Shown here: piece after piece, positions 28,259-51,785 of the stretch
Numbering within the stretch: the first letter of the stretch is position 1
Layout: each line of letters opens with the position of its first letter
Source of the DNA: Brevundimonas goettingensis
Lineage (GTDB): Bacteria > Pseudomonadota > Alphaproteobacteria > Caulobacterales > Caulobacteraceae
Length of the DNA: 64,000 nucleotides
Direction of reading: 5' to 3'
Assembly (NCBI RefSeq): GCF_017487405.1
Contig: NZ_CP062222.1
Location: 2,961,001-3,025,000 of the forward strand
Position numbers and translations under genes: made by a program
Notes under the pieces: generated by a model
Told to the model about the DNA's origin: nothing
Database searches by the model: none
The model's input: the letters and a program-made list of their open reading frames with translations, nothing else

Positions 28259-29188
28259 TTAACCCAGAGCGCTCATCAGCTCGGGGACGATGGTCTTGTA
28301 GTCGCCGACGATGCCGTAGTCCGCGACCTGGAAGATCGGGGCGTCGGGATCCTTGTTGATGGCGACGATGGTCTTGGAGTCCTTCATCCCGGCCAGGTGC
28401 TGGATGGCGCCCGAGATGCCGATGGCGATGTAGAGCTGCGGCGCGACGACCTTGCCGGTCTGGCCGACCTGATAGTCGTTCGGGGCGTAGCCCGCGTCGA
28501 CCGCGGCGCGCGAGGCGCCGATGGCGGCGCCCAGCTTGTCGGCCAGGGGCTCCATCACGGCGTGGAACTCTTCCGACGAACCGAGAGCGCGACCGCCCGA
28601 GACGATGATCTTGGCGGCGCCCAGTTCCGGACGGTCCGACTTGACCAGCTCTTCGCCGACGAACGACGCCTTGCCGGCCTCGACGCCGGAGACGGTCTCG
28701 ACCGGAGCCGAGCCGCCCTCAGCCGCCGCCGCGAAGCCCGTCGGGCGCACGGTGATGACCTTCTTGGCGTCGGACGACTGGATCGTCTCCAGCGCATTGC
28801 CGGCGTAGATCGGGCGCACGAAGGTATCGGCGCTCACGACCTCGACGATGTCCGAGATCGGGGCGACGTCCAGCTTGGCGGCCAGGCGCGGCATGAAATT
28901 CTTGCCGTCCATGGTCGCGGGCGAGAGGATGGCGTCATAGCCGCCGGCGAGGGCCAGAACGGTCTCCTCGACGTCCTCGGCCAGCTGGTGGCCCAGGCCG
29001 GCGCTTTCGGCCAACAGGACCTTGCGGACGCCGGCGATCTTCGCGGCGCTGTCGGCCGCGGCCTTCGCGCCCGAACCCACGACCAGGACGTCAACGTCGC
29101 CGCCGATGGCCAGAGCCGCCGTCACGGTCTTGTTGGTGGTGTCGCGGACAGCCGAACCGTCGTGGTCGGCGATGACGAGAACGGCCAT
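28259..29188 (-). CDS. etfA: electron transfer flavoprotein alpha subunit
   Basis: This 309-aa protein binds FAD and, with EtfB, carries electrons from acyl-CoA dehydrogenases to the quinone pool. The C-terminal FAD domain shows [38 protein letters not shown] and [20 protein letters not shown]. It starts one base after etfB ends, so the pair is a tight operon. Confidence 0.95.
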
Positions 29189-29189
29189 C

Positions 29190-29954
29190 TTACAGCGCTC
29201 CTGCGGTCTTGAGCTTGGACACGAGTTCGGCGGCGTCGGCCACCTTGATCCCGGCGGAGCGGGTGGCGGGGGCGGTCACCTTGACCACCTTCAGCCGGTC
29301 GGCGACGTCCACGCCATAGTCGGCGACCGCCTTGACGGCGATCTCCTTCTTCTTGGCCTTCATGATGTTGGGCAGGGACGCGTAGCGCGGCGTGTTCAGG
29401 CGCAGGTCCACGGTCACGACCGCCGGCAGGGTCGCCGCCAGGGTCTGCAGGCCGCCGTCGACCTCACGCGTCACGGTCGCCTTGCCGCCGGCGATCTCGA
29501 TCTTCGAGGCGAAGGTGGCTTGCGGCCAGTCCAGCAGGGCCGCCAGCATCTGGCCGACGGCGTTGTTGTCGCCGTCGATCGACTGTTTGCCCATCAGGAC
29601 CAGATCGGGCTTCTCTTCCTCGACCACGGCCTTGAGCAGCTTGGCGACCGCCAGAGGCTCCAGATCAGCGTCCGACTGGATCAGGATGCCGCGGTCGGCG
29701 CCCATGGCCAGGGCGGTGCGGATGGTTTCCTGGGCCTGGGTCACGCCGATGGAGACGACCACGATCTCGGCGGCGGTGCCGGCGGCGTGGTGTTCCTTGC
29801 CTTCCTTCAGGCGCACGGCCTCTTCGACGGCGATTTCGTCGAACGGGTTCATGCTCATCTTGACGTTGGCGAGATCGACGCCCGTCTGATCCGCCTTGAC
29901 GCGGGCCTTGACGTTATAGTCGATCACCCGTTTGACGGGGACGAGTACCTTCAT
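29190..29954 (-). CDS. etfB: electron transfer flavoprotein beta subunit
   Basis: This 254-aa protein starts at ATG 29954 ([17 protein letters not shown]), the usual family start; the five codons upstream are excluded. It contains the AMP-binding-region residues [11 protein letters not shown] and the EtfB signature [15 protein letters not shown]. It forms the heterodimer with the downstream etfA product. Confidence 0.95.
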
Positions 29955-30083
29955 GGGAAGCCTATCCATATCTTCGTCGAATTGTTGGGGCAGGGAATGG
30001 TACGGGGCGAAGCCCCTGTCAACGTAACGTAGCGTGAACTAAATGGGCCCAGCCGCTCGAAAAGTTTGCCGTAGAGAGACCTG

Positions 30084-43071: not shown

Positions 43072-43156
43072 GCGGCGGGCCTGCTCTCCACACGGGTCGA
43101 CATTGCCTCGCTCGCTCTTAAGGTTAAGCTACAACCTTGAGGGAGGAACGAAAATC

Positions 43157-44428
43157 ATGCTGTCTGAAGTGGTGAGCGCGACAAATGCTTTGGAAGGCTT
43201 CGCGACATTTATAGAAGAATACTGGACTGAGCAGCCATACCATTTGGCGATCGGCGGCTGGAATATGCCACCCCTTAGTAGAGACGATATGGCTAACCGA
43301 GCCCGCCGGTTAGCTCACAGGCTGTCTCAACAGAGCGATGAGAGTTTTGACGCGGCAGCGAGAGGTCAACTCTCCAGATTGCCTGAGCAAATTTCATGGT
43401 TTCAAGCAAATACTGTGCCACAGATAACAGGCTCAGCACCTCAGGTACTGGCGAACTTCGAGATAATAATCTCCAACATTGAGTCCTTATCGACGAGCGA
43501 CACCCCTAATTGGGAAGCGATCGATGACAAGAGCTTGGTTCCTCACAATATAGCTCGAAGAATACGAAATTTAGAAGCAGCAATTACTCGTCTAGAACCT
43601 CGCACAGCCGAGATGGATGATCAAGTCGCACGCATAAACGAAGCCCACGCAGCGGCCCTCGACCTTCCAACGGACCTACAATCGCTGAAGGAAGCTAGAG
43701 ACGAGATTGTTTCATATTCAGAATCCGCATCAAATTACTCAAATAAGATTCAAGAAAGCTTTCAATCTTCTCTTCTAGACATAGATTCAATATCTAGACA
43801 GGAGTCGGAAGCTAAAAAGCTAATATCTAACATTGAAGCCGCGTACAGCGCAGCCACTACCGCTGGACTGGCTGCGTCGTTTACGGAAAGAGCATCACAA
43901 CTCAATAGATCGACTTGGATTTGGGTTGCATTTCTATTTACAGCCTTGAGTGCCGGAGGGTATCTAGGATATTTCAGACTAAAATCTCTCCAAGACTTGA
44001 TATCTGCGCAATCAATCGATCATGAATGGGTTTGGTTAAACGCGGGCATGTCAATATTCGCTATTGCCGCGCCGGTTTGGTTTGCTTGGCTGGCAACGAG
44101 GCAAATCGGGCAGAGATTCCGGCTAGCCGAAGACTATGCTTTTAAGGCCTCCGTAGCGCGCGCCTATGAGGGATACCGTAAGGAGGCAGCTCGACTAGAC
44201 CCAGAACTTGAAGCTCGGTTATTTGCGTCTGCCTTAGATCGACTCGAAGAAGCACCACTGCGCTTTCTGTCGATGGAAGAGCACAGCAGTCCCTACGAGT
44301 CGCTGTTGGCCTCCGCTGGCTTTCAAAGGGCACTGGAAAAAATACCAGACCTTCGAGCGACAGTCGTCGCGTTACTGAACCGGACGGATCCAAATCAACA
44401 GACGAAAGCCCATTCAACAACAGAATAA
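43157..44428 (+). CDS. coiled-coil protein with two TM segments (accessory, low GC)
   Basis: This 423-aa protein has a strong GGGAGGAA 8 bases before ATG 43157. Residues 1-80 are globular; 100-250 are helical and coiled-coil prone (NLEAAITRLEPRTAEMDDQV). Two TM spans follow (about 256-276 and 300-322), then a cytoplasmic domain with QIGQRFRLAEDYAFKASVAR and AYEGYRKEAARLD. Base and codon use are far more AT-rich than flanking genes (many ATA, TCT, AGA codons), pointing to horizontal transfer. Such architecture occurs in membrane-linked defence or stress proteins, but no family name is secure. Confidence 0.8.
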   Translation: MLSEVVSATNALEGFATFIEEYWTEQPYHLAIGGWNMPPLSRDDMANRARRLAHRLSQQSDESFDAAARGQLSRLPEQISWFQANTVPQITGSAPQVLANFEIIISNIESLSTSDTPNWEAIDDKSLVPHNIARRIRNLEAAITRLEPRTAEMDDQVARINEAHAAALDLPTDLQSLKEARDEIVSYSESASNYSNKIQESFQSSLLDIDSISRQESEAKKLISNIEAAYSAATTAGLAASFTERASQLNRSTWIWVAFLFTALSAGGYLGYFRLKSLQDLISAQSIDHEWVWLNAGMSIFAIAAPVWFAWLATRQIGQRFRLAEDYAFKASVARAYEGYRKEAARLDPELEARLFASALDRLEEAPLRFLSMEEHSSPYESLLASAGFQRALEKIPDLRATVVALLNRTDPNQQTKAHSTTE

Positions 44429-48131: not shown

Positions 48132-48490
48132 TTATGCCGCGACCATGCGGTCGACCTCGTTCACCAGATCGCGCAGGTGAACGGGTTTCGAGAGCACACT
48201 TTCGCCTGCGGCGACGCCTGGGCGGCCGAGAGGGCGACGGCGGCGAAGCCGGTGATGAACATGATGCGCAGGCCGGGCATGCGGGCGGCGGCGACGCGGG
48301 CCACCTCGATGCCGTCGGCGCCGGGCATGACGATGTCGGTCAGCAAGAGGTCGTAGGGGCCGTGCTCGAGGGCGTCGATGGCGTCGTCGCCGTTCTCGCA
48401 ATCGACCACCGTGTGGCCCGCGCGCTCGAGCGCCCGGGTCAGGAAGCCGCGCAGGGAGGCGTCGTCTTCCGCCAGAAGTATGCGCGCCAT
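48132..48490 (-). pseudogene. cpdR: CpdR-like response regulator, frameshifted near C-terminus
   Basis: From ATG 48490 (MARILLAEDDASLRGFLTRA) the receiver domain is normal through D52 in LLLTDIVMP and FITGFAAVAL. After QAKV an extra TG (GTGTG, plus-strand 48195-48199) shifts the frame, giving CSRNPFTCAIW and a stop at 48161. The expected LSKPVHLRDLVNEVDRMVAA follows in the other frame to 48132. CpdR controls polar ClpXP and CtrA turnover in Caulobacter. The conserved receiver Lys lies after the shift, so the product as read would be defective. Confidence 0.75.
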
Positions 48491-48635
48491 CGTTGCCTTC
48501 CCCACGTTCGAGAACGCAGACCTTATGCCCCCAAGCGTAAACCGCCCATGAAAATCACCGTTGGGGCGAACGAAGGCAGGGGACGGGCCGGTGGACGGGC
48601 TGTGGACGAGCGGGGAAATCGGCTATGCGGGAAGG

Positions 48636-49505
48636 ATGACGCCGGACGCCCTCCCCTTCAGCCTGAGCCTGCCCGAAGGAGAGCGGGGGCCGTTCGTCTT
48701 CGCCTCGCCGCATTCGGGGGCGGGGGTTCCGGAGGACATGGGGGCGGCGGCGGGGCTGTCGGAGGCCTCGCTGAGGAGCGCCGAGGACGTGGGGGTGGAC
48801 CGGCTGGTCGCCTCGGGGCCCCGGCGGGGCGCGCCCCTGATCGCGGGGCGGTTCAGCCGCTCCTGGGTTGACCTGAACCGCGCGCCCGAGGAGCTGGATC
48901 CGGCCCTGATCGAGGGACTGGAGGCCGGTGAGGTGTCTGCGAAGACGGCGGCGGGGTTCGGGGTGATCCCCAGAAAGGCCGGCGACGGCGTGGCCCTGTA
49001 CGACCGGCGGCTGATGCTGGCGGAGGCCAGGGCCCGGCTGGCCCTGGCCCATACGCCCTATCATGCGGCCCTGGGCGAGCTGATGCGGGCGGCGCACGCG
49101 CGGCATGGACTGGCGGTGCTGGTCGACTGGCATTCGATGCCGTCGCGGGCGGTGCGGGGCGGGGCGAGGGGCGCGGCCGGACCCGACGTCATCCTGGGCG
49201 ACAGGCACGGCACGGCCTGCGCCAGCGGGCTGACCCGCAAGCTCAGGACGCTGTTCGAAGCGGCGGGCTGGCGCGTCGGGCTGAACCAGCCCTATGCGGG
49301 AGGCTATACGACCCAGATCTGGGGCCGGCCGGACGAGGGGTATCAGGCGATCCAGATCGAGCTGAACCGGGCGCTCTACCTCGACGAGACGACGCTGGAG
49401 CCGGGGCCGGGCTACGGCCGCTGCAAGGCCGTGCTGGACGGGGTCATCGCGGCTCTTTGCGCCGCCGACGATGGCGCGTGGCGGGCGAGCGAACGAGGGC
49501 AGTGA
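48636..49505 (+). CDS. N-formylglutamate amidohydrolase family protein
   Basis: This 289-aa protein begins at ATG 48636 after a GGAAGG-like site. Motifs: FVFASPHSGAGVPEDMG, the metal/His segment VLVDWHSMPSR, LGDRHGTACA and YTTQIWGRPDEGYQAIQIEL. It hydrolyses N-formyl amino acids or related amides, classically in histidine degradation. Divergent placement beside cpdR is the Caulobacterales arrangement. Its 3' end overlaps the VanZ-like gene by 62 bases on the opposite strand. Confidence 0.85.
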   Translation: MTPDALPFSLSLPEGERGPFVFASPHSGAGVPEDMGAAAGLSEASLRSAEDVGVDRLVASGPRRGAPLIAGRFSRSWVDLNRAPEELDPALIEGLEAGEVSAKTAAGFGVIPRKAGDGVALYDRRLMLAEARARLALAHTPYHAALGELMRAAHARHGLAVLVDWHSMPSRAVRGGARGAAGPDVILGDRHGTACASGLTRKLRTLFEAAGWRVGLNQPYAGGYTTQIWGRPDEGYQAIQIELNRALYLDETTLEPGPGYGRCKAVLDGVIAALCAADDGAWRASERGQ

Positions 49506-49995
49506 CGTCAAGGGCGGCCTCGGCGTCGGGCTGGCCCCGGCGGTCCTGGGCGCGGATCTCGGCGAAGGTCGCGTCGGGCGCGGTGCGGGCGAGGAACCGC
49601 AGCCGCTCGACCCAGCCGGGGATCATGGCCACCACGATCCCGACCGCATCCGCGGCCAGTTCAAGCAGCGACAGGCTGCGGCCGGTCAGGGCCTGAAGCG
49701 TCTCGGACATGACCGCGATCAGCAGGGCGACGAGGGCGATGTCGCCGCGCCGCCATCCGGGGGCGATCGCGAACAGGCCGGTGACGATCCAGAAGAAGGC
49801 GATGGCGTGGGCCGGACCGTCGGTCAGGCCGAACACCCGCTCCAGCCCGTGGAAAGGCCCCAGGATCACGACCGCCAGACCGAGCCCGCAGACGGCGGCG
49901 GTCGGACGCAGAATCCGGAGGACCCGGTTGGGGGTAAGGAGAGACGGCGTCAACACGCGGGTAAAATCCTGAAGACCGAACCTCAGGTTACGCAA
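49444..49995 (-). CDS. VanZ-like family membrane protein
   Basis: This 183-aa protein has three to four TM spans (about residues 30-48, 62-80, 86-100 and 110-128) with HAIAFFWIVTGLFA and ALLIAVMSETLQALTGRSLS, resembling VanZ-like proteins. Such proteins are linked to glycopeptide resistance only by distant similarity. The basic C-terminal tail overlaps the preceding gene antisense. Confidence 0.75.
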   Translation of the reverse strand: MRNLRFGLQDFTRVLTPSLLTPNRVLRILRPTAAVCGLGLAVVILGPFHGLERVFGLTDGPAHAIAFFWIVTGLFAIAPGWRRGDIALVALLIAVMSETLQALTGRSLSLLELAADAVGIVVAMIPGWVERLRFLARTAPDATFAEIRAQDRRGQPDAEAALDVTALVRSPATRHRRRRKEPR

Positions 49996-50069
49996 GCGAT
50001 GTCCAATGCGCCATGAAGCGGCGTGGTGAATTCGACGTTAAAACGCACCCAAACGCCGGGCGCGGAACG

Positions 50070-50154
50070 AAAAAAAGGCCGCGCCATACCGGCGCGGCCA
50101 TGAAAGTCTATAGGGAGGAAACGCCCAGGAAGGGCAAGACGCCCGGAGGCGTCG
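50070..50154 (-). ncRNA. candidate intergenic small RNA with own promoter and terminator
   Basis: On the minus strand, hairpin 1 is GACGCC-TCCG-GGCGTC (50153-50138, UNCG-type loop), hairpin 2 is GCCC-TTCC-TGGGC, then an unpaired pyrimidine-rich stretch with TTTCCTCCC (complementary to a Shine-Dalgarno). It ends with GGCCGCGCC/GGCGCGGCC (50099-50077) and seven T. A consensus promoter lies just upstream. There is no open reading frame on this strand of matching length. Confidence 0.65.
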
Positions 50155-50160
50155 AAGGTC

Positions 50161-50189
50161 AATCTAGGTTGCGATGCACAATGCGTCAA
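50161..50189 (-). promoter_or_regulatory. sigma70-type promoter of the small RNA
   Basis: On the minus strand TTGACG (50189-50184), a 17-base spacer, and TAGATT (50166-50161). Transcription would start near 50154, at the first hairpin of the candidate small RNA. Spacing and match are unusually good for this genome. Confidence 0.6.
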
Positions 50190-50334
50190 CCATTCAATCC
50201 GCGCATCGGATCACGGGTTGTTACCGTAATTTGCCTCACCTGACGTAAGGTAACCGGTGTCCATGCACGAATCGGACCCGAAACGGGTGGGATCACGCGA
50301 TGCGTGATGCTGCAGCGCAAAATAGCTGTGCCGT

Positions 50335-51084
50335 TCAGCGGGGATCGTTTTCGCCCGGGATGCTGGAAAGGGCACCGGGGAAGCCGCCCGCTCGCGCTTC
50401 CTCGGCCTCAAGCATGCGTCGGGCCTCGCGAATGGCCCGGGCCGCGGGCGAGGCGGCCTGACGCCACGCCAGGAGGCTGAAGGCCGAGACCACCGCCGCC
50501 GCCAGCCACACCGGGCCGAACAGCCAGGCCCCGGCGGCGAGGGCGAAGTAATAGCCGCGCACGCCCTGGCTGAAGGAGGCCAGGGCCGGATTGAGCACCC
50601 GGGCCGTGGCCTCGCCGAAGGCGACCTTGTCGCCGGGCTGATGGATCTCGGGCGCGGCGCCGATCAGGGCCAGCGCATAGTTCATCTGGCGCAGGGACCA
50701 GATAAAATCGAGCAGACCGCGCGCCAGACAGGCGAGGATCAGCGCCAGCTTGGCCTCCAGCAGCCGGACCGGCACGGCCTCGGCCCCGACCGAGGCGAAG
50801 GCCCGAAGCGCGTTCTCGCCGCCGAACAGCACCCCGCCGACGGCCGCGATCAGCAGCAGGTTGGAGGAGGCGAAAAAGGAACCGGAGTTGATCGAATGGC
50901 CCAGAAGCTGGCTGTCCAGCAGCCGCAGATCCCGATGGGTCATGGCCGTCATCCAGGCGCGCCGGATGGTCAGCATATCCTCGTTCAGGGCGCCGCTTCG
51001 CCGCGCCAGAAGCTTGAGCAGCGGGTCATAGCCCAGCCAGCACACGATGAAGAGCGCAAGCGCAGCCCAGTCAGTGGTGGTCAT
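50335..51084 (-). CDS. DUF599 family membrane protein
   Basis: This 249-aa protein has four TM segments and the family motifs RRAWMTAMTHRDLRLLDSQL, SGSFFASSNLLLIAA and FIWSLRQMNYALALIGAAPE, then a charged Ala/Glu-rich tail. DUF599 proteins are conserved alphaproteobacterial inner-membrane proteins of unknown function. Confidence 0.88.
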   Translation of the reverse strand: MTTTDWAALALFIVCWLGYDPLLKLLARRSGALNEDMLTIRRAWMTAMTHRDLRLLDSQLLGHSINSGSFFASSNLLLIAAVGGVLFGGENALRAFASVGAEAVPVRLLEAKLALILACLARGLLDFIWSLRQMNYALALIGAAPEIHQPGDKVAFGEATARVLNPALASFSQGVRGYYFALAAGAWLFGPVWLAAAVVSAFSLLAWRQAASPAARAIREARRMLEAEEARAGGFPGALSSIPGENDPR

Positions 51085-51218: not shown

Positions 51219-51785
51219 ATGAACATCGACGCCATTCCCGTCGGCCCGAACCCACCCTGGGACCTGAACGTCATCATCGAGATCCCGCAAGGCGGTCTGC
51301 CGGTGAAGTACGAAATGGACAAGGACTCCGGCGCCCTGTTCGTCGACCGTTTCCTGCACACCGCCATGTACTACCCGGGCAACTACGGCTTCGTGCCGCA
51401 CACCCTGGCCGACGATGGCGACCCCTGCGACGTCATGGTGCTGAATCCTTCGCCGGTGGTGCCGGGCTGCGTGATCCGCTGCCGCCCCATCGGCGTGCTG
51501 CGCATGGTCGACGAGGCTGGCGGCGACGACAAGATCCTGGCCGTGCCGGTCGACAAGCTGAACCCCTACTACACCGACATTGCCAGCTATCGTCAGCTGC
51601 CGATGATCCTGGTCGAGCAGATCGAGCACTTCTTCACCCGCTACAAGGATCTGGAGAAGAACAAGTCGGTGACCGTGAAGGGCTGGGGCGACGCCGGCGA
51701 GGCCGCCGCCCTGATCGCCGAGGGCATGCGCGCCCACGACGAGGCCCAGAAGGCCAAGAAGAGCGGCGCCGCCAACGCGGCCTGA
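51219..51785 (+). CDS. ppa: inorganic pyrophosphatase (family I)
   Basis: This 188-aa enzyme hydrolyses pyrophosphate to drive biosynthesis. Active-site residues: K30 and E32 in LPVKYEMDKDSG, Y56 in YPGNYGFVP, DGDPCD at 66-71, and the acidic DEAGGDDKILAVP segment. The C-terminal HFFTRYKDLEKNKSVTVKGW is typical. Terminator follows. Confidence 0.95.
   Translation: MNIDAIPVGPNPPWDLNVIIEIPQGGLPVKYEMDKDSGALFVDRFLHTAMYYPGNYGFVPHTLADDGDPCDVMVLNPSPVVPGCVIRCRPIGVLRMVDEAGGDDKILAVPVDKLNPYYTDIASYRQLPMILVEQIEHFFTRYKDLEKNKSVTVKGWGDAGEAAALIAEGMRAHDEAQKAKKSGAANAA

Follow-up and report, generated by a model that had tools for sequence, protein, structure and literature searches.

Between a VanZ-like reading frame and a DUF599 gene of Brevundimonas goettingensis, the minus strand has the look of a complete small RNA (sRNA) gene, and the question it raises is whether this is a separate gene and, if so, whether it is new and how it might be controlled. 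It lies in a 64,000-nucleotide stretch of DNA that was analysed as a whole (the window). The predicted parts are as follows.

50070..50154, minus strand: predicted sRNA transcript of ~85 nt, with the 5′ end placed from the -10 box and the 3′ end from the T-run (promoter and terminator scans, fold)
50184..50189, minus strand: -35 box TTGACG (promoter scan; a conserved block in the genus alignment)
50161..50166, minus strand: -10 box TAGATT, with a 17-bp spacer to the -35 box (promoter scan)
50138..50153, minus strand: hairpin 1, 6 bp, GACGCC-UCCG-GGCGUC with a UCCG loop (fold and genus alignment; mostly outside the Rfam model)
50123..50135, minus strand: hairpin 2, GCCC-UUCCU-GGGC, the weak hairpin of the alpha-r8 family (fold, Rfam match)
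50112..50121, minus strand: single-stranded 10-mer UUUCCUCCCU, the predicted pairing seed, which includes a CCUCC anti-Shine-Dalgarno motif (fold; it equals the family core in PMC12559287)
50070..50099, minus strand: intrinsic terminator, a 9-bp all-GC stem followed by seven T (fold, scan and sequence alignment)

An alpha-r8 sRNA beside the FGase gene

A promoter scan of the 351 bp at 49990-50340 gives the sRNA promoter as the sole promoter-like site (mean of 0.1 in shuffled sequence), and the near-consensus minus-strand promoter described in the initial annotation (TTGACG, 17-base spacer, TAGATT) is this site. The terminator scan is weak when taken alone (one found, 0.7 expected). Positions 50156-50070 have a minimum free energy of -42.2 kcal/mol (z = -5.48), and none of 200 shuffles was equally stable. 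The fold contains the two short hairpins that had been reported (the UNCG-type loop is the UCCG of hairpin 1) and the 9-bp GC terminator stem with seven T at 50099-50070, and the CCTCC that had been placed in an unpaired segment falls within the 10-mer UUUCCUCCCU (50121-50112), which is unpaired in both the minimum-energy and the centroid folds. The view that an sRNA gene with its own promoter lies between the VanZ-like and DUF599 genes is thereby borne out at the level of sequence.

Positions 50142-50062 of the minus strand match Rfam family RF00519 (suhB/MmgR, alpha-r8; its Rfam title is suhB, “Makes More Granules Regulator RNA”) in cmscan with 69 bits (E 3.8e-12, model positions 1-77 of 77), where the gathering score is 41 bits. 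The kinship with alphaproteobacterial CCUCC sRNAs that had been suspected is upheld by this match, but the label “undescribed” has to be given up, because the score is far above the gathering score and the FGase gene is a neighbour, as it is for Caulobacter crescentus SisA. Judged by model and position, the minus-strand RNA is an alpha-r8 (MmgR/SisA, Rfam suhB) sRNA in its usual place beside FGase, a well-anchored member of an already described family, and so not new. Most species have one alpha-R8 copy next to FGase, and in Caulobacter that copy is sisA (PMC12559287); the present gene is therefore, on position and model alike, the SisA/MmgR-type standard copy. A literature search for MmgR in Brevundimonas returned no paper.

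Other sRNA families also expose CCUCC, and sub-threshold Rfam matches of 21.8-23.2 bits are present within 49800-50500. SorX (RF02784) scores 22.3 bits against a gathering score of 46.6 and anti-hemB (RF02837) 23.2 against 49.5; these two and the Betaproteobacteria toxic sRNA are all far under their gathering scores (46.6, 49.5 and 50), whereas RF00519 has 69 against 41, and the neighbourhood is of the alpha-r8 type. The chance that the RNA belongs to one of these three families instead is practically negligible.

A covariance-model search of relatives, a check proposed with the initial annotation, found RF00519 above its cut-off in 30 of 31 sampled genus genomes and 144 of 149 sampled Caulobacteraceae genomes (this genome counted in both); the one genus genome among the 31 with no RF00519 match is G147. 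Across the class it is above the cut-off in 86 of 190 sampled genomes (107 at E 0.001). Two of 14 control genomes were matched, only Caulobacter vibrioides above the cut-off. The B. goettingensis genome itself has four copies above the cut-off (69, 53.7, 48.4 and 48.3 bits). Outside these four, the sRNA core recurs as an identical 15-base sequence, GGGCGTTTCCTCCCT, at ~1490-1600 of locus L070 (contig C1 of the same genome, near 1015356), just 3′ of a gene like those for TonB-dependent receptors (TIGR01782; the fetched part scores 289.8 bits, the cut-off being 310). The sequence is predicted to sit in the loop of a hairpin, after which come a GC-rich stem and a T-rich tract; it may belong to an alpha-r8-like RNA located in a 3′ region.

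The genes around the sRNA are these.

48161..48505, minus strand: response regulator receiver domain protein (PF00072), conserved neighbour (Pfam, 61-locus comparison)
48561..49505, plus strand: FGase (N-formylglutamate amidohydrolase, PF05013), marker neighbour of the family (Pfam)
49444..49995, minus strand: VanZ-like reading frame, which separates FGase from the sRNA (its name comes from the sequence pattern alone)
50335..51084, minus strand: DUF599 gene (PF04654), conserved neighbour (Pfam, 61-locus comparison)
51219..51785, plus strand: inorganic pyrophosphatase (PF00719), conserved neighbour (Pfam, 61-locus comparison)

FGase, DUF599 and pyrophosphatase are present together at all 31 genus loci (one locus per genome). 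FGase also accompanies DUF599 at 14 of 15 further Caulobacteraceae loci (the exception is L026), and the remaining 15 of the 61 loci (12 loci from other genomes and three paralogues in this genome) are without this arrangement. The 31 genus loci and the 15 others, which were drawn from the 30 best-scoring loci of the family-genome survey and not at random, make up the 46 loci called orthologous in position below; L026 belongs to the set (DUF599 and pyrophosphatase are present, but the 3 kb fetched gave no match to FGase), and L009, with an FGase match but no DUF599, does not.

The VanZ-like frame begins ~75 nt past the terminator on the same strand, so that the RNA could be imagined as a cis-acting leader or attenuator of that frame. 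The frame is matched at only one of the 61 loci, that of this genome (~1.5 kb searched on each side), whereas the sRNA is conserved, and the published relative SisA works in trans (PMC12559287); a leader role is very improbable. The frame has no Pfam or NCBIfam match at 1e-3.

The hairpins are as well conserved as the neighbourhood. The three hairpins were compared across 31 distinct sequences of the genus: every one of the 558 cells of 18 pairs is a standard pair, and two-sided changes occur in five pairs (two in stem 1 and three in stem 3); when the partners were slid by one to three columns there were none at each of the six offsets. Further pair types show no excess in these 31 sequences (six, against 6.4 in shuffles). 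Compensatory changes in all three stems had been proposed as a check, and they are found in stems 1 and 3 but not in stem 2, which is invariant across the 31 sequences, so that covariation is uninformative for it. The tetraloop of hairpin 1 varies within the genus (UCCG, UUCG, UUUG, UCGC, GCGA), and a hairpin of differing sequence is predicted at its position at 15 of 15 further loci. The 10-mer UUUCCUCCCU is invariant at the 46 loci, which it also served to anchor, and its flanks are almost unvarying too.

This near-constancy also bears on whether the hairpins and terminator are only the 3′ end of the DUF599 mRNA, with no separate sRNA. DUF599 does lie upstream on the same strand and ends ~180 bp before the predicted sRNA start. 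Against such a reading, the sRNA has a promoter-like sequence of its own with two conserved sites at fixed spacing (described below), the 10-mer and its flanks hardly change, and the three other copies in the genome, which have no matches to these neighbours, keep the core and terminator. A distal DUF599 terminator is thus a highly unlikely explanation, and a separate alpha-r8 gene is preferred.

A PhaR-type dyad within the promoter

Three features besides the -35 and -10 boxes were recognized in the promoter region.

50170..50178, minus strand: PhaR (AniA) operator-like dyad TGCATCGCA (YGCRNYGCR), between -35 and -10 (assigned by sequence)
50175..50181, minus strand: heptamer TTGTGCA, which overlaps the dyad (position from the sequence)
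50209..50224, minus strand: conserved upstream element GTAACAACCCGTGATC (GTWACNNNNCGTGAYC), GTWAC-N4-CGTGA, centred ~62 bp before the predicted start

The heptamer TTGTGCA reportedly has a role in the induction of mmgR by nitrogen limitation. The dyad (in fuller form GCATTGTGCATCGCAACCTAG) resembles the PhaR consensus WNWD2NYGCRNYGCRNH2WNW; the Sinorhizobium meliloti mmgR site CAATTGTGCACCGCAGCATTA was efficiently bound by PhaR in gel shifts, which were abolished once the palindromes were altered or omitted (PMC12542648). A review describes control of mmgR as positive by NtrC and negative by AniA, with the dyad inside the -35/-10 region (PMC8401924). For the four sibling sRNA promoters of C. 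crescentus no common motif is reported (PMC12559287).

YGCRNYGCR is present between -35 and -10 in all 46 promoters of orthologous position, where first-order resampling expects ~2.8 (2.0 of the 31 genus and 0.8 of the 15 other promoters). It is also present in 20 of the 27 readable promoters among 28 class-wide loci (3.8 expected) and in three of the 12 family copies that are not beside FGase (0.9 expected). At six of these 12 copies (L014, L015, L019, L022, L027 and L029) a palindrome like TGTTAGCGCTATCA, of LacI-type look, lies at the promoter; control of them by a GluR-like regulator is no more than a guess. Upstream of the sRNA promoter, at 50311-50319, there is a second dyad of the PhaR type, TGCGCTGCA.

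The genome encodes PhaR (TIGR01848, 157.7 bits, cut-off 109.45) as well as PhaZ, PhaC and two phasin-domain proteins. The sequence TTGTGC-N3-GCAA occurs at four places in it (two for the reversed control): before two of the four alpha-r8 genes, the other two being without it, just before phaZ, and at one other place. A palindrome, TTGTGCAGTGCACAA, lies upstream of one phasin gene; phaC and the second phasin gene of this genome showed no dyad of this kind in front of them.

A genuine alpha-r8 sRNA could also have a dyad whose main reader is ChvI or some regulator other than PhaR, and so respond to envelope stress and not to poly-hydroxybutyrate (PHB); the motif TTGC-N3-GCAA, putatively that of ChvI in C. 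crescentus, and the PhaR consensus overlap (PMC9731502). This seems rather unlikely, although it deserves more weight than the readings set aside above. The PhaR core is found in every one of the 46 promoters, similar dyads precede phaZ and the phasin gene in the same genome, and PhaR binds the mmgR site in vitro (PMC12542648), all of which point to PhaR as the probable reader.

An upstream element shared with pckA

In the genus alignment of promoters the second conserved block is the upstream element GTWAC-N4-CGTGA, whose half-sites are 10 bp apart. With up to two mismatches allowed, the sequence GTWACNNNNCGTGAYC is found in 44 of the 46 promoters (22 exact, 19 with one and three with two), against one of 46 for the reversed pattern, a count that, like that for pckA, overstates the number of trials since related sequences are not independent events. 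The exceptions are L047, with three mismatches, and L059, with no element. In 45 of 46 promoters its start and the dyad are 46-47 bp apart. A position near -62 of a start is common for activators.

The same element lies upstream of pckA. The pckA loci, matched in 26 of the 31 genus genomes, were not used in defining the pattern, and all 26 have it within two mismatches inside the 170 bp before the gene (11 exact, eight with one and seven with two), with none of 26 for the reversed pattern and one of 26 for the gene body as controls; in B. goettingensis the pckA site sits on the opposite strand. Sites within one mismatch show a mild excess in this genome (36, against 19 for the reversed pattern). 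Of the 30 that were inspected many are inside reading frames, and others lie before genes for acetoacetyl-CoA reductase, fructose-bisphosphate aldolase, GAPDH and PEP carboxykinase (each above its NCBIfam cut-off) and before ABC-transporter-like and short-chain dehydrogenase genes. In the window, an etfB-like gene (29190-29969, minus strand; below the NCBIfam cut-off), which is followed by an etfA-like frame at 28259-29188, has a copy with one mismatch ~55-70 bp in front of it, at 30024-30039. A count over 40 family genomes gave 33 exact sites, spread over 21 of the genomes, and 11 for the reversed pattern; of 28 new loci inspected from these, 15 are inside a reading frame by a crude test.

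The region upstream of gap was surveyed more widely. A site within two mismatches is present at five of 76 loci (80 fetched, 76 with enough sequence), with three of 76 for the gene body and none of 76 for the reversed pattern. Three of the eight nearest loci have one (L159, L160 and L162), and L161 (with a 92% identical protein), L164, L165, L166 and L168 do not. Support for gap as a member is thus local, and the gap counts, like the mild excess in this genome and the many sites inside reading frames, speak against a wide regulon. At 28 class-wide loci the element is absent within one mismatch, and within two it occurs only at L083, on the opposite strand; on these comparisons it is typical of the Caulobacteraceae. 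No description of it was found in the literature searched, of which coverage was partial, and one may still be in print.

Several regulators were considered as its reader, and none gave a convincing match by eye to the published sites as far as these could be consulted: CenR of Rhodobacter sphaeroides (TGA-N8-TGA), ChvI and BvrR, and the LacI-type GluR, PckR and GapR (20-bp palindromes are given for GapR and GluR). For CceR the literature searched gave no motif for comparison.

It is possible that the FGase-linked alpha-r8 sRNA and pckA (and in the genus perhaps gap, fba, etfBA and acetoacetyl-CoA reductase) belong in the Caulobacteraceae to the regulon of a single factor acting through GTWAC-N4-CGTGA near -62, a proposal to which we give even chances of being right. 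A common regulon with pckA would mean that the sRNA joins a gluconeogenesis/central-carbon switch to PhaR's sensing of PHB in one promoter. Such a factor, if found, would show how PHB storage is tied to gluconeogenesis and to a repressor of translation, and might also explain why several sRNA copies with different promoters are kept. As the call of a new sRNA has resolved into a family with a known pairing mechanism, effort can shift to the reader of this element.

Proposed mechanism and comparison with known systems

By homology the sRNA would be an Hfq-dependent repressor that pairs through its seed, and members of its family are described as helping to control carbon storage and nutrient use in related bacteria. 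In the C. crescentus siblings Hfq dependence, seed pairing and a sponge were shown experimentally: SisA represses CCNA_03574 (a TonB-dependent receptor), its 10-mer pairing upstream of the start codon as indicated by compensatory mutations, and CrfA, which is induced by carbon starvation, pairs with SisA-D as a sponge (PMC12559287). CCNA_R0157 and CCNA_R0143 (SisD and SisC) are described as co-purifying with Hfq in C. crescentus. In S. meliloti, the other species with a studied family member, a variant of MmgR without the 10-mer over-accumulates PHB (PMC12559287).

On this basis a mechanism of four steps can be proposed. A sigma-70-type promoter would be repressed by PhaR (AniA) on the TGC-N3-GCA dyad between -35 and -10 and probably stimulated by a factor at GTWAC-N4-CGTGA near -62, so that RNA output would track PHB and carbon state. 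The RNA would end at the GC terminator and be held by Hfq; its exposed UUUCCUCCCU would pair with purine-rich ribosome-binding regions of target mRNAs and lower their translation; and a CrfA-type sponge RNA may relieve this repression under carbon starvation. In this organism every one of these steps is drawn from conserved sequence. That the gene is an alpha-r8 sRNA beside FGase with this full mechanism is nonetheless highly probable, the confidence being slightly reduced because the sponge step finds no support in this genome. A search for exact complements of the 10-mer gave three AGGGAGGAAA sites in the genome and no CrfA-like sponge: the complement of the sRNA itself, a site opposite the 3′ region of a TonB-receptor gene, and a site upstream of rpoN. 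Duplex predictions for nine 5′ regions gave nothing decisive: the best duplex with the 5′ region of one phasin gene, at -15.9 kcal/mol, does not stand out from the others, which range from -11.6 to -21.1.

Two sites complementary to the seed deserve mention. At 1499-1510 of locus L072 (contig C1, near 3857092), ATAGGGAGGAAA is a 12-base complement ~88 nt upstream of a sigma-54 (rpoN) frame; its duplex with the sRNA has -27.4 kcal/mol, a value reached by 13 of 3000 random stretches of the window. At 43140-43159 of the plus strand, AGGGAGGAACGAAAATCATG is complementary to the seed and may be a ribosome-binding site; it precedes a 423-amino-acid frame, which is part of a 464-amino-acid frame and has no Pfam match.

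SorX and the other CCUCC sRNAs share the exposed CCUCC and the terminator with this RNA and differ from it in model scores that are far below their gathering scores here. SisA of C. crescentus (PMC12559287) is much closer, with the same place beside FGase, weak hairpin, UUUCCUCCCU core, terminator and four genome copies, a likeness judged from the published description of SisA. The present locus differs from it in the VanZ-like frame between FGase and the sRNA and in that no CrfA sponge was identified among the exact 10-mer complements searched. MmgR of S. meliloti has the same Rfam family (RF00519), core and terminator, and a PhaR-type dyad between -35 and -10. The upstream element, in contrast, is typical of the Caulobacteraceae, as judged from 28 class-wide loci that did not include S. 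meliloti, and S. meliloti has a single copy of the sRNA (PMC12559287) where the B. goettingensis genome has four.
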